From a virus, in the IMG/VR virus record IMGVR_UViG_3300037963_001722, positions 1 through 37,190 of that record: 37,190 bases of DNA; one strand, 5' to 3'. Positions 2,580 to 37,048 of this stretch are shown piece after piece (within the stretch, counting starts at the first letter, position 1; each line of letters begins with the position of its first letter). A program made the position numbers and the translations under genes. The notes under the pieces were generated by a model. That model did no database searches. It saw only the letters and a list, made by a program, of their open reading frames with translations, and was not told the DNA's origin.

Positions 2580-2780
2580 ATGGAAAAATATGATGCAATA
2601 TCTTGGTGTATAAAAAATGGAATAAAGGTTTACGCTGTGCCAAGAGACGCTAAACAATACTTTGTTGAAGTAGATAACAATGGTAATATTACTCGTAGTC
2701 CTAAAACATATGGAAAAAAACAATGGAGTGATAAGGTTTATGAAATATACCTGTACTATTATAAGAAATATTCCAAATGA
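2580..2780 (+). CDS. Small protein, 66 aa, unknown
   Basis: A 66-residue basic, tyrosine-rich protein (MEKYDAISWCIKNGIKVYAV at the N-terminus). It sits alone between the repeat-rich non-coding region and the operator array at 2811. Its ATG lies in a potential hairpin, ATACCT (2557-2562) pairing with AGGTAT (2576-2581), which could mask the start. No family recognised; its isolation beside control regions makes a regulatory role possible but unproven. Confidence 0.6.
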   Translation: MEKYDAISWCIKNGIKVYAVPRDAKQYFVEVDNNGNITRSPKTYGKKQWSDKVYEIYLYYYKKYSK

Positions 2781-2810
2781 CATATAGTCAGTATATATAT
2801 ATTATATATA

Positions 2811-2861
2811 TATTACATAGTGTAATATTATACATAGTGTAATATATTACATGGTGTAATA
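2811..2861. promoter_or_regulatory. Three tandem 17-bp palindromic operators (late side)
   Basis: Three abutting 17-bp units at 2811-2827, 2828-2844 and 2845-2861. Units 1 and 3 have perfect 7-base arms TATTACA/TGTAATA around a 3-base centre (TAG or TGG); unit 2 has TACA/TGTA arms around TAG. The 17-base period is exact. The same core recurs only at 25808-25873. They lie upstream of the tail/head gene block starting at 2947. Confidence 0.8.
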
Positions 2862-2946
2862 CTAAATATATATAATACTATTAATATGACAAACAGACAT
2901 ATGGAATAGTTGAGATACAATATTAACAATAATTATTAATTATAAT

Positions 2947-3657
2947 ATGGCTAAGAAATTTATAGAATTAGAAGTACCGCAAACGCTAAATGATATAACG
3001 CTTGAGCAGTACCAAAAATATATGAAAGTCATGGATGCTCATAAGGACGCAGAACAAACTGATGAGCTAACAAACTTTCTAAACATGAAACTTGTTGAAA
3101 TATTTTGCAACATAAGCCTTGCAGAAGTAGATAAGATTTCTGTAAGAGGTTTTGATAAAGTATTAGAAATATTAAATAAAGCTTTTAGTGAAAAACCTAA
3201 ATTAATTAGAAGGTTTAAGCTTGAAGGTGTAGATATGGGATTCATACCAAAACTTGATGATATTTCATTAGGAGAATATATTGATGTAGAAACTAATATT
3301 TCTAATTGGCAAAAAATGCACGTAGCAATGTCTGTTTTATATAGGCCAGTAAATTTTAAGCTTGGTGATAAATACGGCATAGCACCATATGAAGCAAAAG
3401 AAGAAATACAACTAATAATGAAAAATATGCCAATGGATGTGGTTTTAAGTTCAATGCTTTTTTTTTGCGATTTAGGGAAAACATTGTTGACAGCTATACC
3501 GAAATATATACCAAAGAATCTGACCAAAGAGAATTTGCAAACTCTAGAGACGTATTTGGAAAAAAATGGGGATGGTATCAATCAATTTATGCACTCGCTA
3601 AAGGTGATGTACTTAAAATCGAGAATGTTACAAAACTACCACTTTACCAATGTTTAA
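2947..3657 (+). CDS. Tail assembly chaperone (gpG-like, zero-frame product)
   Basis: A 236-residue mostly helical protein, first of the morphogenesis block and 86 bases after the operator array. The PKLDDISLGEYIDVE and MPMDVVLSSMLFFCDLGK segments resemble tail assembly chaperones of Bacteroidota phages as I remember them. Strong support comes from the overlapping -1 frame, which continues into a natural-looking C-terminal domain, as in lambda G/GT. Such chaperones coat the tape measure during tail-tube polymerisation. Two slippery sites lie in the gene: T_TTT_TTT (3459-3465) and A_AAA_AAT (3561-3567). Confidence 0.65.
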   Translation: MAKKFIELEVPQTLNDITLEQYQKYMKVMDAHKDAEQTDELTNFLNMKLVEIFCNISLAEVDKISVRGFDKVLEILNKAFSEKPKLIRRFKLEGVDMGFIPKLDDISLGEYIDVETNISNWQKMHVAMSVLYRPVNFKLGDKYGIAPYEAKEEIQLIMKNMPMDVVLSSMLFFCDLGKTLLTAIPKYIPKNLTKENLQTLETYLEKNGDGINQFMHSLKVMYLKSRMLQNYHFTNV

Positions 3658-4765: not shown

Positions 4766-6127
4766 ATGTCAACAATAATAAACACAAGAAGTCCTTTTTA
4801 TTTAAAAGTATCAGATAAAGATTTAAGTAGTGTAAAGTTACAATTATATATTTGGACAGGATTACACGCATCAAGAACAAATGCTTACTTAAGATACACA
4901 ATTAGTAAAGACCAAAAATTAGATGAATTAGATAGGGGTACTACTTCGGCCACTACAGCAAACAAACTTGTTGATAGTACACAAAATTTTAGCTCTACAG
5001 TACAGGTTGGTAGTTTTGTTAAAAACACAACAGACAATACGACAGCTTCAGTTACAGCTATTGATAGTAATACTACCTTATCTCTAAGTTCTGATATTAT
5101 GGCATCAGGAAAAAATTATATTATATATGCAAAACCTTATGTTGTTTTTGAATTAGCAGAACTTGCAAGAGATTATATAGAAACAGAATATAACAACTAT
5201 GCAACAGATACTATATGGATTGATGCAGATATAACTATGTTCAACGCTTCTGGCAATATAATACAAGTAAGTGGACAAAATATTGTTACAAATACATTTT
5301 TAGGTATTGATGGTTATGGTTACTTTGAAGACGGAGTAAATCCAAGAACTACAACTACACCAATGGTTTTACAATCGAACACTTCAGAAGTTTATTATTT
5401 TGATGGTCAAGATATAAAAATACCAATATTCGCTGAAGCCTTGCCACTTGTAACATTGACAAGTTCAGCAGGTTCAAATATAAACTGGGAAGCAGCAAAT
5501 GACTTTTGGGAAACTAACGATAGTACATGGGGTTCAGGTTCAACACCTATACAAATTGCAGACAATGGTAACACAAACCAAAAAATACAATATGTAATAA
5601 TTGAAGATACACAGTTACTTGCTGATGGTGATACAGTAACATTTGACACATCTGTATCTGGATATACTGACAAAGTAATAACATTAAGGAAAGTAGAAGA
5701 ATGTAAATTCAGTCCACTAAATATTATATTCTATAATAAATTTGGTGCACTACAAAATATATGGTATTTCAAAAAATCATTTACAGATATAAATATAAGA
5801 AGTGAGAAATTTAAGAATAATATACTTGATATTGAAAATAGTGGCGCAACACCATCTTACGCATTATCAAAACATCAGGAAAAGAAATTTATGGCAAACG
5901 GTAAGGAATCTCTTACTGTAAATAGCGGTTATTACCCTGAAGCCTATAATGAAGTTGTTAGACAAAAAATGTTAGCAGAACAAGTTTGGGTTGACGATAT
6001 AACTAAAGTTTTACCTATTAATCTAAAATCAAATAGCCTTAGATTTAAAAAATCAGTAAATGATAAACTTATAACATATACAGTACAATTCGATTATGCC
6101 TTTGATAAAATAAATAATATTTTATAA
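4766..6127 (+). CDS. Large tail structural protein with duplicated insert domain
   Basis: A 453-residue, beta-rich structural protein of uncertain position in the virion. Residues ~58-120 form an insert (from GTTSATTANKLVDS to SSDIMASGKNYII) that recurs at residues ~653-716 of the next protein. Around it, an N-terminal strand region and the C-terminal segment with EECKFSPLNIIFYNKFGALQ look continuous, so the insert may have been placed into an older protein. Located between tail-completion genes and the tape measure, so a distal-tail or tail-tip role is likely. Its stop overlaps the next ATG (TAATG). Confidence 0.6.
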   Translation: MSTIINTRSPFYLKVSDKDLSSVKLQLYIWTGLHASRTNAYLRYTISKDQKLDELDRGTTSATTANKLVDSTQNFSSTVQVGSFVKNTTDNTTASVTAIDSNTTLSLSSDIMASGKNYIIYAKPYVVFELAELARDYIETEYNNYATDTIWIDADITMFNASGNIIQVSGQNIVTNTFLGIDGYGYFEDGVNPRTTTTPMVLQSNTSEVYYFDGQDIKIPIFAEALPLVTLTSSAGSNINWEAANDFWETNDSTWGSGSTPIQIADNGNTNQKIQYVIIEDTQLLADGDTVTFDTSVSGYTDKVITLRKVEECKFSPLNIIFYNKFGALQNIWYFKKSFTDINIRSEKFKNNILDIENSGATPSYALSKHQEKKFMANGKESLTVNSGYYPEAYNEVVRQKMLAEQVWVDDITKVLPINLKSNSLRFKKSVNDKLITYTVQFDYAFDKINNIL

Positions 6128-24598: not shown

Positions 24599-25180
24599 AT
24601 GAAAAATCTACAAAGTAAATTGGTGGCTATTCAAACGAGTTTGAAAGCACCTAAAAATCAAAGGAACAGTTTTGGTAATTACAATTATAGAAGTTGTGAA
24701 GACATTTTAGAAGCAGTAAAACCACTACTAAAAAAAGAAGGTTTATTGTTGACAATATCTGATTTTATTAACAATGACCCTTTATATGTTGTGGCTACTG
24801 TTACTATAAGTGATGGCACAGATACTATAAGTGTTACTGCACAAGCTGGTATTGACCCTAGTAAAAAGGGTATGGACATAGCTCAATGTTTTGGTGCATC
24901 ATCTAGTTATGCTAGAAAGTACGCTTTAAACGGCTTATTTTTGATAGATGACACTAAGGATGCTGATGCAACTAATAATCACTCTAAGAGCACGAAAACA
25001 GGCTCTAATTGGACGCAAACAACTACTCAAACGCTAGATGCTGAAAAAGAGTGGTTGCCAAAAACAGGCAAGTATTTTGACAATGCAAAAAAAGCTGTAA
25101 AAGAAAATAGAATAACAATAGCTGATGTCAGAAAAAAATACAAAGTAAGTAAAGAAGTCGAAAAATTATTAACAAGTTAA
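24599..25180 (+). CDS. erf: ERF-family ssDNA annealing protein
   Basis: 193 residues from ATG 24599; a longer frame begins at TTG 24530 but would cross a terminator, so the internal ATG is chosen. The ERF signature is clear: NSFGNYNYRSCEDILEAVKP at the N-terminus, then a beta core, GMDIAQCFGASSSYARKYAL and NGLFLIDDTKDAD. ERF proteins anneal complementary single strands in phage recombination. The C-terminal region after residue ~125 is a low-complexity Ser/Thr linker, then a small helical domain. First gene of the replication block. Confidence 0.9.
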   Translation: MKNLQSKLVAIQTSLKAPKNQRNSFGNYNYRSCEDILEAVKPLLKKEGLLLTISDFINNDPLYVVATVTISDGTDTISVTAQAGIDPSKKGMDIAQCFGASSSYARKYALNGLFLIDDTKDADATNNHSKSTKTGSNWTQTTTQTLDAEKEWLPKTGKYFDNAKKAVKENRITIADVRKKYKVSKEVEKLLTS

Positions 25181-25184
25181 ATAT

Positions 25185-25430
25185 ATGAACGAAAAAAAGT
25201 ATGTAGGTTCTGGAAGACAAGTAAAGAACTACGATTTAATAAATTTTACAATAGCTGAAGACAAGACAAAAGATTCTTGGATTGAGTATAATGGAAGGAA
25301 GTTTTTAAAACTTAGTATTGGCAAGAAAAAAGAAGTTGACCAATATGGTAAAACTCACACAGTTTGGATTGATGAGTATGTGCCAGAGCAAAAAACAGAG
25401 AGTAAACCAGAAACCGATTTACCATTCTAA
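25185..25430 (+). CDS. SSB-like protein with DLPF acidic tip
   Basis: 81 residues beginning MNEKKYVGSGRQVKNYDLIN. The strand pattern and the C-terminal ETDLPF resemble the acidic protein-interaction tip (DIPF/DLPF) of single-strand DNA-binding proteins. It is shorter than bacterial SSB and its core is not a clear match, so this is a small SSB-like protein or a short OB-type variant. Its position between ERF and a helicase gene supports a replication or recombination role. Confidence 0.55.
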   Translation: MNEKKYVGSGRQVKNYDLINFTIAEDKTKDSWIEYNGRKFLKLSIGKKKEVDQYGKTHTVWIDEYVPEQKTESKPETDLPF

Positions 25431-25516: not shown

Positions 25517-25810
25517 ATGAATAACAAATACTTAAATATTAATTTAAATTTTATGAATACTAATTTAACAATACCAGAAACTGTTGTTTTATCTTATATT
25601 GAAGGTTTAACCAGAAAAAAAGGTTTTTGCTATGCTTCAAATAAATCTATTTGTGGCGCATTAAAAATGAACGATAGAACTTTATACAGGGTACTAAACA
25701 AATTAGAAGACAAAGAATATATAAAAAGAGTAACTAAAAGTGTAGGCAATGGTGGTAAAGAAAGAAAGATTTATGTAAGTCCAGATGTCAAGCTTGTCAG
25801 TTCCTTGTAA
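25517..25810 (+). CDS. Winged-helix DNA-binding protein (replication or regulator)
   Basis: 97 residues. Residues ~18-80 carry a helix-turn-helix with wing: IPETVVLSYIEGLTRKKG, ASNKSICGALKMNDRTLYRV, KLEDKEYIKRVTKSVGNGGK. This resembles phage replisome organiser or regulatory winged-helix proteins. It directly precedes the operator array of the primase-helicase gene, and the first operator overlaps its stop codon. A half-site copy lies in the hairpin before its start. It is the best candidate for binding the operators; an internal ATG at 25553 is a possible alternative start. Confidence 0.65.
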   Translation: MNNKYLNINLNFMNTNLTIPETVVLSYIEGLTRKKGFCYASNKSICGALKMNDRTLYRVLNKLEDKEYIKRVTKSVGNGGKERKIYVSPDVKLVSSL

Positions 25811-25873
25811 TACATAGTGTAATATATAATATATATATATAATACATAGTGTATTATAATACATAGTGTAAAC
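25808..25873. promoter_or_regulatory. Three palindromic operators before the primase-helicase
   Basis: Cores TACA-TAG-TGTA at 25811-25821, 25843-25853 and 25860-25870. Centres of the last two are 17 bases apart, as in the array at 2811-2861; the first is 32 bases upstream of the second. The first unit overlaps the stop of the winged-helix gene; the last ends just before the ATG at 25875. The site could block transcription or, as RNA hairpins, translation. Confidence 0.75.
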
Positions 25874-25874
25874 A

Positions 25875-27605
25875 ATGATACAAGAATTCAAAAATATATC
25901 TATATATCCTAAGGGTAATAGAACACAACAAAAGGTCATTTGCCCTAATTGTTACAAAATTGGCAAAAAACATTATAAAGATTTGTGTCTAAGTATTAAC
26001 TTAGATACAGGTCTTTTTAATTGCCATAAATGTAGTTGGAAAGGATGTGTAAAACCAAAAGATAATTTTATGCCTACAAAACAATATACAAAACCACAGA
26101 AAAATAATCTACAAAAGATAAACAACAAAGGTTTAGAGTTTTTACATAAACGAGGTATAACAAAAGATGTAATACAGGCAAACAAAATTATAAGTACAAA
26201 AGATGGCAATAGTATTGTATTTCCATATTTCAAAGACAATGAACTGATAAACTATAAAACTAGAGGTTTAGTAAAAAAAACATTTACACAAAGTAAAGAT
26301 AGTTTGCCAATTATATATAATTACGATAGAGTAAAAAACGAAAAGCTAATAATTATATGCGAAGGAGAAATGGATTCGTTAAGTTGGGAAGTAGCTGGTA
26401 TTACTTGGCATACTTCTGTAAACATGGGTGCACCAAATATAAAAGATAAAAACTTAGATAAAAAATTAGAATGTATATCTAATTGTTACGAAGTATTTGA
26501 ACAGGCCGAAAGAGTTTATATTGCAACAGATAATGATGACAATGGCAGATATTTAGAAGATGAATTAGTTAGAAGATTTGGCGCAGAAAAATGTAAGATA
26601 GTAAGTTTAAAACCATATAAAGATGCAAATGAGGTTTTATTAAAAGAAGGCATAGAATCATTAAAGCAAAGAGTAAGAGATGCTCATGACCCTAAGTTAG
26701 AGGGTATATTTTCTATTGACGATATATACGATAGTATGATTGATGGTTATAGGAACGGTCAAGAAAGGGGTACTACGACTCACATAGATTCAATAGATAA
26801 TGCTTGGACTTGGAGAATAGGAGAAGTAAATATTTGGACTGGTTATCAAAACGAAGGCAAGAGTATGTTTCTAGGACAATTAGCTTTACTAAAAGCTTTT
26901 CATGATGGTTGGAAGTTTGGTGTATTTAGCCCAGAGAATATGCCTATAAATGATTTCTATAGTGATTTAATAGAATCATATATTGGCAAAAGCGCAGACC
27001 CTTTTTATGCCAATAACTATATGACTGAGAAAGATTTTAAGGAAGGTTTAGAGTTTATGAAAAAACACTTCTTTGTTATATATCCAAAAAAAAGTTATAA
27101 ATTAGACGATATCTTTGACAGAGCTAAATTTTTAGTTAAGACAAAAGGTATTCGTTCTTTGATAATAGACCCTTACAACACTATCCAACACAGGATGCAA
27201 AAAGGTGAAAGAGAAGATTTATATATATCTCGTTTTATGAGTGAACTAAAAAGGTTTGCAGTAGAGAATAAAATTTCTGTACATTTAGTTGCACACCAAG
27301 TTACACCACAAAAAGATGACAACAACAGATATTATAAACCAGATGTAAATAGAATTAAAGGTGGTGGTACTTTTGCTGATAAATGCGATAATTGTCTATT
27401 TATATGGAGACCAAATAGAGCTGTTGACTTTAGCGATACTAGAGTTATATTTGGCAGTCAAAAGATAAAAAAACAAAAATTAGTTGGTTATCCACAAGAG
27501 ATAGCTGGTATAACATACGACAGGAAGTCAAGCCGATATTATTTTAACAATCAAACCCCTTTTGTTGAAATAGATAAATATAGGTGCGACTTAAAGCAAG
27601 AGTAG
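25875..27605 (+). CDS. Bifunctional primase-helicase (T7 gp4-like)
   Basis: 576 residues. A zinc-binding domain has Cys23, Cys26, Cys50 and Cys53 (CPNC and CHKC). A Toprim domain follows: IICEGEMDSL and VYIATDNDDNGR carry its acidic residues. A RecA-type helicase domain has a Walker A-like TGYQNEGKSMF, a Walker B-like RSLIIDPYNT and a later GGGTFADKCDN segment. This is the architecture of phage primase-helicase fusions, which unwind the fork and make primers. The start follows the operator array with little leader space. Confidence high. Confidence 0.92.
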   Translation: MIQEFKNISIYPKGNRTQQKVICPNCYKIGKKHYKDLCLSINLDTGLFNCHKCSWKGCVKPKDNFMPTKQYTKPQKNNLQKINNKGLEFLHKRGITKDVIQANKIISTKDGNSIVFPYFKDNELINYKTRGLVKKTFTQSKDSLPIIYNYDRVKNEKLIIICEGEMDSLSWEVAGITWHTSVNMGAPNIKDKNLDKKLECISNCYEVFEQAERVYIATDNDDNGRYLEDELVRRFGAEKCKIVSLKPYKDANEVLLKEGIESLKQRVRDAHDPKLEGIFSIDDIYDSMIDGYRNGQERGTTTHIDSIDNAWTWRIGEVNIWTGYQNEGKSMFLGQLALLKAFHDGWKFGVFSPENMPINDFYSDLIESYIGKSADPFYANNYMTEKDFKEGLEFMKKHFFVIYPKKSYKLDDIFDRAKFLVKTKGIRSLIIDPYNTIQHRMQKGEREDLYISRFMSELKRFAVENKISVHLVAHQVTPQKDDNNRYYKPDVNRIKGGGTFADKCDNCLFIWRPNRAVDFSDTRVIFGSQKIKKQKLVGYPQEIAGITYDRKSSRYYFNNQTPFVEIDKYRCDLKQE

Positions 27606-27871
27606 ATAGTAACCAAAAAAAAATAGTTTCTGAACTAAGGAAGATAGGTTGTAGTATATTACATACTCATCAACTTGGCAAAGGTGCACCAGATATTATT
27701 GTTGGTTACAATGGAAACAATTATTTAATAGAAATCAAAGATGGTAGCAAAACATTATCTCAACAGAGACTTACTAAAGATGAATTACAATTTCAATCTA
27801 ATTGGAAGGGCTCATACTTTGTTTGTAATTCTGTTGAACAAATTAAAGAGATATTGCTTTGTGAATTGTGA
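27584..27871 (+). CDS. VRR-NUC domain nuclease
   Basis: 95 residues, starting at GTG 27584 (22-base overlap with the primase-helicase). GKGAPDIIVG, then YLIEIKDGSKTLS, followed by TKDELQFQ is the VRR-NUC nuclease pattern, with Asp37, Glu50 and Lys52 as the metal-binding triad. Phage VRR-NUC proteins of this size act on DNA junctions or replication intermediates. The start is inferred because no nearby ATG gives the full domain. Confidence 0.85.
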   Translation: MRLKARVDSNQKKIVSELRKIGCSILHTHQLGKGAPDIIVGYNGNNYLIEIKDGSKTLSQQRLTKDELQFQSNWKGSYFVCNSVEQIKEILLCEL

Positions 27872-28439
27872 GATACTTGACATACTATCCAACAAACACC
27901 AAGATTGGTTTAACATGGCAAAAAGCTTTGGTTTGTCAAATGATGATGCAAACGAAATAGTACAAGAAATGTATATTAGAATTTATGATTATACAAAAGA
28001 CATAAAAAAGATTATGTACAATAAAACAGAAGTCAATACTTTTTACATATACATAACATTAAGAAACTTATACTATAGTAATTTTGCCAAGTATGGCAAG
28101 AGTATAAAAACTAAAAAAATATTTTTATTTACAGAAATGGATGACAATTCAATAAAGAAAGTTTATAATAATTATTTTGAGGATTATGAATCATATATGC
28201 AAACTGTATCTAAAAAAAAGAGTTTAGATAAGCTACATGAAAAAATAGAACAAACTATTGATAGTTGGTACTGGTACGACAAAAAACTAACTAAGTTATA
28301 TTTTGATAGTGGCATGAGCATGAGAGATTTAAGCAAGGAGACAAAGATAAGTTTAAGTTCAATATTTAATACATTAACAAATGCAAAAGAAAAAATTAGA
28401 CAAAACACAAAAGAAGAATACAAAAAATACAAAAGCTAG
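27861..28439 (+). CDS. Sigma-factor-like small protein
   Basis: 192 residues from GTG 27861, overlapping the nuclease; longer upstream starts would run far into that gene. LSNDDANEIVQEMYIRIYDY resembles the region-2 helix of sigma-70-like proteins. Near the C-terminus, LYFDSGMSMRDLSKETKISL is a helix-turn-helix of the region-4 type. Such proteins are common in flavobacterial phages, from memory, and could redirect host RNA polymerase to phage late promoters. Divergent from bacterial sigma factors; DNA-binding but not necessarily sigma activity is likely. Confidence 0.6.
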   Translation: MNCEILDILSNKHQDWFNMAKSFGLSNDDANEIVQEMYIRIYDYTKDIKKIMYNKTEVNTFYIYITLRNLYYSNFAKYGKSIKTKKIFLFTEMDDNSIKKVYNNYFEDYESYMQTVSKKKSLDKLHEKIEQTIDSWYWYDKKLTKLYFDSGMSMRDLSKETKISLSSIFNTLTNAKEKIRQNTKEEYKKYKS

Positions 28440-31239: not shown

Positions 31240-31586
31240 AGAAAAAAGATGGTCGTAGAAATAATGGTGCTATAAAAGGTATATCAAGAGGTCAGGGCCG
31301 AAAACCTAAGGCACAAGAAAAAAAGATAAGTAGCTTTGCTTTACAATCAATGAAAAAAGTATTTGGAAGTGAGGAGAAAGCTTGGTTAGAACTTGGTAAG
31401 ATGGCAAAAGAAAGTTTCCCTCATATGAGATTACTTTGGGAATATAAGTATGGTAAACCAAAAGAAAGCAAAGAACTTGATGTTAAAACAGAAGTTAATA
31501 TTCCTGTAATAAACTTCTTAGATAAAGACACTACTATTGATATTGAACATAACGAAGTAGATGAAAAACCTAAACCTAAACAATAA
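31227..31586 (+). CDS. Terminase small subunit-like
   Basis: 119 residues: basic N-terminus (KDGRRNNGAIKGISRGQGR), then a helical core (FALQSMKKVFGSEEKAWLEL, MAKESFPHMRLLWEYKYG) and an acidic C-terminus ending DEKPKPKQ. It directly precedes TerL, overlapping it by 26 bases, which is the expected slot for the DNA-recognising subunit. HTH not clearly visible; assignment is by neighbourhood and character. Confidence 0.65.
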   Translation: MDEIKKKDGRRNNGAIKGISRGQGRKPKAQEKKISSFALQSMKKVFGSEEKAWLELGKMAKESFPHMRLLWEYKYGKPKESKELDVKTEVNIPVINFLDKDTTIDIEHNEVDEKPKPKQ

Positions 31587-32775
31587 ATACCAAACTCTAT
31601 TCAATTCAAAGGATAGATACTTTGTAATTACAGGTGGTCGTGGAAGTGGTAAATCATTTGCAGTTAATACCTTTTTAGTATTATTAACATACGAAGCTGG
31701 ACATAGAATATTGTTTACTCGATTTACAATGACTTCAGCAGGTATGTCTATTATACCAGAGTTTATAGAAAAGATTGAACTTATGGGAATAGGAGAGCAA
31801 TTCACAATAACTAAAACAGAAATCATTAATAATTTAACAGGCAGTTCAATATACTTTAGTGGTATCAGAACAAGTAGTGGAGACCAAACTGCAAAACTAA
31901 AATCTATACAAGGTGTATCTACATTTGTATTAGACGAAGCAGAGGAGTTAACTGATGAGGAAAGCTTTGATAAAATTGATTTTAGTATTAGAGCAAAGAA
32001 TGTAACAAACAGATGTATATTAATTCTAAACCCCACTACAAAAGAGAACTGGATATATCAAAGGTTTTTTCAGAACAGAGGAATTCCAGATGGTTTTAAT
32101 GGAACTAAGAATAATATAACATACATACATACAACATACTTAGACAATTTAACACACCTTTCTAAATCTTTTGTTAAACAGATTGATGATATGAAAATAA
32201 GAAGGCCAGAGAAATATAAACATCAGATTATGGGTGGTTGGTTACAAAGAGCAGAAGGAGTTATATTTACTCATTGGAATATAGGTAAATTCAATACCCA
32301 AATAGATTCAATATATGGTTTAGATTTTGGTTTTAGTGTTGACCCCTCAGCTTTAGTTGAAGTTGCGATTGATAAAGTTAGAAAAATTATTTGGTTAAAA
32401 GAACATTTTTATAAAACAGGATTAACAACAAGTCAAATATATGATTTATCAATTCGATACGCTGGTAAGAATTTAATAGTATGTGATAATTCTGAGCCAA
32501 GACTAATATCTGAATTAAAATCAAAAGGGTTAAATGTTGTGCCAACAATAAAAAGAAAAGGAAGCATATTAACAGGAATTAGTTTAATGCAAGACCACCA
32601 AATGATTGTTGATAGTAGTAGTATAAATTTAATCCGTGAATTTAATAATTACTCATGGAAACTATCTGGCTCTATTCCACACGATTCCAACAACCATTTG
32701 TGCGACTCCTCCAGATATGCAATTCAATATTTACTTACTCGTTCTGTACCACACGGAAGTTATTTTGTAAAATAA
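31561..32775 (+). CDS. terL: Terminase large subunit
   Basis: 404 residues. The ATPase has Walker A GGRGSGKS (residues 25-32) and Walker B FVLDEAEEL (Asp125-Glu126), with ILNPTTKENW coupling motif. The nuclease half begins GLDFGFSVDPSALVE, then VCDNSEP and a later HDSNNHLCDSSRYA giving the RNase H-like acidic residues. This is the Terminase_3 type motor that packages DNA. Portal lies at 15131, far away. Overlaps the small subunit by 26 bases. Confidence 0.93.
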   Translation: MKNLNLNNKYQTLFNSKDRYFVITGGRGSGKSFAVNTFLVLLTYEAGHRILFTRFTMTSAGMSIIPEFIEKIELMGIGEQFTITKTEIINNLTGSSIYFSGIRTSSGDQTAKLKSIQGVSTFVLDEAEELTDEESFDKIDFSIRAKNVTNRCILILNPTTKENWIYQRFFQNRGIPDGFNGTKNNITYIHTTYLDNLTHLSKSFVKQIDDMKIRRPEKYKHQIMGGWLQRAEGVIFTHWNIGKFNTQIDSIYGLDFGFSVDPSALVEVAIDKVRKIIWLKEHFYKTGLTTSQIYDLSIRYAGKNLIVCDNSEPRLISELKSKGLNVVPTIKRKGSILTGISLMQDHQMIVDSSSINLIREFNNYSWKLSGSIPHDSNNHLCDSSRYAIQYLLTRSVPHGSYFVK

Positions 32776-36120: not shown

Positions 36121-36227
36121 CGGCAATTTTCCAGAGGTAGAAAAATGACCATAAAAAAAATAATTGTTAAAATACTTGTGTATGTCAGTTGCGTTTTGTA
36201 GTATTGAAAACATAATATAAAAACAAT
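36121..36227 (+). repeat. Direct repeat A, copy 2
   Basis: Bases 36121-36210 are identical to 1-90; then two mismatches and a further match to about 36227. It carries the same promoter as copy 1 and leads the gene at 36234. Confidence 0.9.
36175..36206 (+). promoter_or_regulatory. Early promoter P5 (identical to P1)
   Basis: CTTG (36175-36178), 20 bases, TAGTATTG (36199-36206), with TGTCAGTTG at 36183-36191; the same as P1 at the left end. Confidence 0.55.
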
Positions 36228-36885: not shown

Positions 36886-36908
36886 TAAATTCAATACATA
36901 AATTTAAT

Positions 36909-36938
36909 ACCCCTTTGTTAATTCAATGGGGTTTTTTT
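36909..36938 (+). terminator. Terminator after gene 36655
   Basis: ACCCC (36909-36913) pairs with GGGGT (36928-36932), followed by T7. Part of repeat B copy 2. Confidence 0.75.
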
Positions 36939-36996
36939 ATGCCTTTTTGTGATTGGGAATTTTTGCAAAGGTATATAAAAATAAATTAATATTTGT

Positions 36997-37027
36997 TTTG
37001 TCAGGTGCAATAATTATCGTAATATTG
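36997..37027 (+). promoter_or_regulatory. Early promoter P6 with TGTCAGGTG box
   Basis: TTTG (36997-37000), 19 bases, TAATATTG (37020-37027); box TGTCAGGTG (36999-37007) has one change from the consensus. Drives the partial gene at 37049. Confidence 0.6.
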
Positions 37028-37048
37028 TTATAAATTAAAATTAAAAAC

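Follow-up and report, generated by a model that had tools for sequence, protein, structure and literature searches.

The same short repeat is arrayed at two distant places in a phage genome, once ahead of the virion genes and once ahead of the gene for a primase-helicase. What are the two arrays for? The genome is IMG/VR record IMGVR_UViG_3300037963_001722, and 'the window' in what follows is the whole stretch that was analysed, positions 1 to 37 190 of that record. Because both places change their sign together in related phages, the pattern agrees better with a single protein marking the starts of replication, and perhaps later blocking copying, than with a simple switch that turns genes on and off. 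No described origin or regulator for this group of phages was found in the literature searched.

The two arrays

Array A (2811-2861) consists of three abutting TACA-n3-TGTA units on the plus strand with a pitch of exactly 17 bp: unit 1 (2811..2827, TATTACATAGTGTAATA), unit 2 (2828..2844, TTATACATAGTGTAATA) and unit 3 (2845..2861, TATTACATGGTGTAATA). In units 1 and 3 the arms TATTACA/TGTAATA pair perfectly; the outer arms of unit 2 are imperfect (TTATACA...TGTAATA, 5/7 pairs). Array B (25808-25873) also has three units on the plus strand, at a pitch of 32 and then 17 bp. Bases 1-3 of its unit 1 (25808..25824, TAATACATAGTGTAATA) are the stop codon of the upstream winged-helix gene. An A+T-only spacer (25825..25839, no strand assigned), a candidate unwinding element, separates it from unit 2 (25840..25856, TAATACATAGTGTATTA), and unit 3 (25857..25873, TAATACATAGTGTAAAC) leaves 1 bp before the ATG of the primase-helicase gene.

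The core ACATRGTGT occurs six times in the 37 190 bases, three times in each array and in one orientation throughout. The looser pattern TACA-n3-TGTA has three additional single copies in the window, at 5586, 21363 and 31907. Three TACA-n3-TGTA within 60 bp were found in none of 300 dinucleotide shuffles of the whole window and in none of 20 000 shuffles of each local A+T-rich array region; the clusters are not a product of chance.

In 93 units taken from relatives, pairing at the three outer arm positions is no more frequent than independence predicts (observed versus expected 65 vs 66.6, 64 vs 64.2 and 55 vs 52.9), so the conserved element is the core TACATAGTGTA, not the 17-bp palindrome. 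The palindrome is kept only in an 11-bp core, and the outer arms are just A+T. Compensatory change in the outer arms had been suspected from the sequences of relatives and was ruled out by the same counts.

The preliminary description of this DNA had reported abutting units repeating at exactly 17 bases at 2811-2861, before the late block, with a second site before the primase-helicase, and the unit and gene coordinates bear this out. Its statement that the core appears at only one other place is correct for ACATRGTGT but too strict for TACA-n3-TGTA, with its three extra single copies. Likewise, the arms TATTACA/TGTAATA that it gave for the units describe units 1 and 3 but not unit 2, and they are not kept in relatives.

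Genomic setting

All genes lie on one strand, and the GC skew of the window is monotonic, without an origin signal. The late operon, with virion genes followed by endolysin and holin, runs from 2947 to ~24290. Its first gene (2947..3657, plus strand), for a 236-aa protein of phrog_32199, is conserved downstream of array A. Directly before array A, at 2580-2780, a 66-aa protein (phrog_5945) is encoded that has the same position in relatives.

A terminator-like hairpin and an early promoter lie before the replication operon, whose order is ERF recombinase, SSB-like protein, winged-helix protein, array B, primase-helicase, nuclease and sigma-like protein, all on the plus strand. The ERF single-strand annealing recombinase at its head (24599..25180) had its start re-placed at ATG 24599. 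The small protein that follows (25185..25430) had no family match in profile searches, and its suggested SSB role comes from the SSB-like acidic C-terminal tip of its sequence (...ETDLPF) only. The 97-aa winged-helix protein (25517..25810, HTH_36) is the proposed reader of both arrays, and the primase-helicase (25875..27605, Toprim and DnaB_C) is proposed to be loaded at array B. The nuclease (27584..27871) matches the phrog_93 endonuclease and, weakly, a Holliday junction resolvase. The sigma-factor-like protein (27822..28439) shares 24% identity over 107 aa with P12024L_35, annotated as sigma-70 region 2, and is a candidate late transcription factor. Further early genes, an exonuclease and the terminase (31561-32775, ~7 kb from array A) come after it. 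Rfam and tRNA scans were empty.

In the collection searched, the nearest named phage by primase-helicase is a Tenacibaculum phage (49% identity) and the nearest by late gene are Nonlabens phages (31%), so the host is likely a marine flavobacterium. Bacterial genomes searched with the winged-helix protein and the primase-helicase for a prophage or host yielded no relatives.

Conservation and joint change of motif

A primase search of IMG/VR returned 80 loci. All relatives of ~72% identity or more carry array B between the winged-helix and primase genes, and the core was present in 27/27 relative records searched. Array A was found upstream of the same late gene in ~20 of the 27 core-bearing records, with 3 to ~8 units at a pitch of 16-17 bp and at a distance of ~10-14.4 kb from array B. 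The preliminary description had staked its proposal on conservation of the arrays in related phages, and in these IMG/VR relatives both loci are conserved.

The order winged-helix gene, array B, primase-helicase is kept in nearly all relatives. At loci L069 and L084 genes are inserted between the winged-helix gene and the primase; in L069 (genome G031) array B stays by the primase, with the winged-helix gene ~1 kb off. L016, L025 and L045 have the first array B unit in the opposite orientation, which argues for recognition of double-stranded DNA, not RNA. In the G039/G040 sub-clade no clear repeat or iterons were evident at array B. Tenacibaculum phage JQ, Nonlabens phage P12024L and Flavobacterium phage tooticki6-1 have no such array pair, and JQ has a longer protein in the winged-helix position.

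The motif falls into classes, TACATAGTGTA, TACATAGAGTA, TACAATGTA and GTTACAAGTAAC, and within a lineage it is the same at both loci. TACATAGAGTA stands at both loci in G009, TACAATGTA in G028, G030, G034 and G036, and GTTACAAGTAAC in G031. A fifth, A+T-only motif, TATA-n-AGT-n-ATA, was found in G033 at the two loci only. A scan for clusters of strict palindromes overlooked the arrays of most relatives, and shared k-mers were used instead. Comparing array A of each of 13 genomes with array B of every genome by shared 8-mers gave a block-diagonal matrix in which four motif classes stand apart. In an all-pairs scan of 100-bp bins within genomes, with no loci preselected and with end repeats and similar duplications set aside, A-B was the top pair in eight genomes (the window itself (WIN), G003, G008, G009, G012, G017, G030 and G031). 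Since the arrays change motif jointly between lineages, a single trans-acting reader for the two is almost certain.

The ends of the records share sequence in G003, G008, G017, G036 and G039, and for this reason these genomes, of ~33-35 kb, are probably circular or circularly permuted.

Duplex stability

Duplex stability was computed with nearest-neighbour energies for all 100-bp windows of each genome. The arrays are the least stable DNA of the 37 190-nt window: the 100-bp window ranked first starts at 2791 (array A) and the one ranked second at 25807 (array B). The arrays also rank 1 and 2 in 5/10 relatives (G009, G030, G031, G033 and G036), and in G003, G008, G012, G017 and G039 both are among the six least stable 100-bp windows. 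This softness holds even in G033 and G039, where the repeat is hard to see. Adjoining array A is an A+T-rich stretch (2790..2812, no strand assigned), a candidate unwinding element whose TATTATATATATA part hardly varies among 20 relatives. Low predicted stability at both arrays fits the look of origin unwinding elements, and strong promoters could yield a weaker version of it.

The winged-helix protein

In PHROG the winged-helix protein mainly matches replication initiators and helicase loaders, with a best E-value of 5e-12 for the initiators, and a tblastn search of 50 697 phage records with this protein matched mainly annotated replication proteins. Its structure was predicted with a pLDDT of 85. 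The nearest solved structures are 4pql and 4pt7 ('Structure of initiator', an initiator N-terminal domain; Z ~10), and matches of this type span the whole chain (rmsd 3.5, ~16% identity). Similar viral structures include replisome organizers. MarR, SarX and MepR regulators trail closely at Z ~9, and for that reason the predicted fold by itself would not separate an initiator from a repressor. Profile matches among solved chains are mostly PadR/MarR regulators; they also include, marginally (E 0.49), TubR (4asn), a small winged-helix centromere binder.

By its sequence the protein resembles the DNA-binding portion of phage replication initiators, and it is the best candidate for the reader of both arrays. 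Compared with initiators of the lambda O and DnaD type, it has the N-terminal winged-helix DNA-binding domain but lacks the C-terminal domain that recruits a helicase or loader: in all relatives the chain stops ~10-20 residues past the wing. The residues ahead of RT in the recognition helix vary (MND, LNE, IKD, VSE, LSD). A strict link between recognition helix and motif class is suggestive, and we do not claim it; L063-L065 have IND without the TACATAGTGTA motif.

Flanking elements and promoters

A dyad element E, TGnCA-n6-CAGTTGG, has copies that face outward on both sides of array A. E1 (CTGACTATATGTCATTTGGAATA; 2769..2791, minus strand), an inverted copy of E2, lies on the left flank, and such a copy is found ahead of array A in several clades. 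E2 (2886..2908, plus strand) is made up of the dyad and a CAGTTGGA-like box, then a conserved TACAA, and is a candidate for the -33 region of a late promoter. Every clade except G031 has it on the far side of array A, with TACAA or a similar box next in most clades, and the CAGTTGGA ... TACAA element stands some 25-60 bp or more past the array. G033 and G039 have a third copy of E, to the left of array B. Element E may belong to a promoter or may bind a second factor. E1 was also considered as a leftward promoter and rejected, there being no consistent -7 box beyond coding constraint.

The early promoter consensus of the phage is TTTTGTCAGTTGGAAATA...TATATTTG, and in the light of it E2 is a candidate late promoter, for which the sigma-like protein would perhaps be the factor. 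The consensus precedes many small genes (at 64, 957, 32833, 34546, 36184 and ~36990), in relatives too, and its -33 part is far longer than the usual Bacteroidota TTG. An exact 90-bp repeat of leader and promoter, at 1-90 and 36121-36210, stands ahead of two unrelated small genes, and a second similar module, of terminator and promoter, is found at ~845-1000 and 36895-37040.

Close relatives retain, at the DNA level, the phage's -33 box GTCAGTT[GC] a short way ahead of array B; the -7 box TATATTTG is absent at the distance expected from it. GTCAG boxes adjoin both arrays, with no full early promoter at either.

A probable two-site origin

We give a probability of roughly 0.55 to the reading that the arrays are iterons bound by a 97-aa minimal initiator, in a two-site origin like that of phage SPP1. 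It draws on features observed by computation: the arrays, their conservation at two loci, their joint change of motif, the A+T softness and the initiator-like neighbour. Origin iterons with unwinding regions suit the pattern at least as well as operators do, given the initiator-like protein, the position of array B without room for a promoter and DNA predicted to be the most easily melted of the window, and the arrays are more probably such iterons than plain operators. Points that count against an origin are the GC skew, although with all genes on one strand, the lack of evident iterons at array B in G039/G040, and the ~1 kb that separates the winged-helix gene from the primase in G031.

We infer binding, melting, helicase loading and fork blocking as follows. 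An initiator reduced to its DNA-binding domain, the winged-helix protein, would bind both arrays. Array B, between the initiator and primase-helicase genes, would be the main replication origin, where the bound initiator would melt the adjoining A+T-only DNA and aid loading of the primase-helicase. Array A would be a second origin-like site heading the late operon, standing to array B as oriR to oriL. It may fire late; alternatively, once bound, it may act as a roadblock that turns theta replication into recombination-dependent synthesis of concatemers, for which the phage's annealing recombinase and nucleases would be available.

In SPP1 one initiator (gp38) binds both oriL, in its own gene, and oriR, in the late region, ~12-13 kb apart; each has direct repeats and an A+T-rich unwinding element, and the initiator at oriR is thought to stall forks, triggering concatemer synthesis by recombination proteins (PMC6316719, PMC3485210). 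The likeness extends to two distant arrays of one repeat, one near the initiator gene and one in the late region, to an A+T-rich region at each array (here from predicted duplex stability, ranks 1 and 2), and to an initiator gene at one array followed by a helicase gene. The accessory set is also present, with an annealing recombinase, a nuclease and an exonuclease for concatemer formation. Unlike SPP1, this phage has a candidate initiator that is only a winged-helix domain of 97 aa, a fused primase-helicase with no helicase loader (gp39-like) among the identified genes, repeats that are short quasi-palindromes at a 16-17-bp pitch, and an array B that follows the initiator gene instead of lying within it.

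Other systems can be compared as well. In lambda the O initiator gene lies beside a helicase-loading gene, and tandem quasi-palindromic ori iterons and an A+T-rich stretch are found at the initiator gene. The initiator-type DNA-binding domain, the tandem quasi-palindromic repeats and the A+T-rich stretch recur here, whereas lambda has one array, inside O, and O has a C-terminal partner-binding domain that is absent here. Satellite phage P4 has a repeat in common at two cis sites, ori and crr, which are bound by a winged-helix initiator that works with a primase-helicase; in P4, however, one polypeptide combines the DNA-binding and primase-helicase parts, and its helicase belongs to another family. 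PDB entries 4pql, 4pt7 and 5kbj, which we take to be N-terminal domains of RepA_N-type plasmid initiators, represent the nearest solved fold over the whole chain, but at ~16% identity and with a winged-helix fold common to many repressors (Z ~9), so that no function is implied.

Alternative explanations

Transcription operators are a serious alternative: the winged-helix protein, or another phage regulator, would repress or time the primase-helicase and the late operon. Repressor-operator arrays of the lambda CI type are tandem dyad sites of short pitch ahead of an operon, as is array A, which directly precedes the late operon with the conserved promoter-like element beyond it. E2 shortly after array A and GTCAGTT shortly before array B are placed as operators predict and tell against the origin reading, as does the missing C-terminal helicase-recruiting domain of lambda O and gp38-type initiators; the fold is also near the MarR, SarX and MepR repressors. 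Yet the 1 bp between the last array B unit and the ATG leaves no room for a promoter, so no promoter follows array B, and the -7 box is not at the expected spacing from GTCAGTT. Unit number (3 to ~8) and spacing from E2 differ greatly between relatives, a variation ill suited to a classical operator or activator. The winged-helix gene itself, unlike that of a CI-type regulator, is not preceded by an array of these sites, and the sequence relatives of the protein are replication initiators. The preliminary description had one regulator governing structural and replication genes; the single reader is strongly supported by the joint motif switch, and the operator role stays conjectural beside the initiator-like protein, the lack of promoter room at array B and the softness of both arrays. 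The late-promoter-like element next to array A is the chief argument for a transcriptional role there.

Such a role could be combined with the origin, array B being the origin and array A an operator that couples late expression to replication. Array B does lie inside the replication operon between initiator and helicase, array A lies by the late-promoter-like element, and self-regulating initiators are known, for example F plasmid RepE (PMC13028717). We regard this division as less likely, array A being as soft as B, with at least as many units, and resembling a second origin. Coating of the repeats by the winged-helix protein as a centromere-like site, or as a start site for terminase, would accord with the marginal TubR match; it is much less credible, with no TubZ or ParA partner among the proteins searched, a terminase gene ~7 kb from array A, and array B beside the helicase left unexplained. 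RNA hairpins in 5' leaders, in place of protein sites, were also considered. The units are able to form short stem-loops, and all six in the window share one orientation, but the outer arms show no covariation, some relatives have a flipped first unit, and there is no Rfam match, making hairpins the least credible explanation.

Implications

The comparisons point to arrays that are real, conserved and common to one regulator. If they form a two-site origin, they provide a testable origin for a widespread group of uncultured phages, probably of marine Bacteroidota, and a possible link between replication and late expression in the same group. A more doubtful proposition is that these uncultured phages use a bare winged-helix domain as a minimal initiator for a pair of origins 10-14 kb apart. 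One of the pair would also lie at the late promoter, replication and the late switch would thereby share a sign, and that sign would have been replaced at both places, in step with the protein, several times. The matched variants of protein and site, in five motif classes at both loci, are a natural data set on joint change of specificity. If the origin reading is true, the two-origin design of SPP1 would also occur in phages unrelated to it, run by an initiator that is much smaller.
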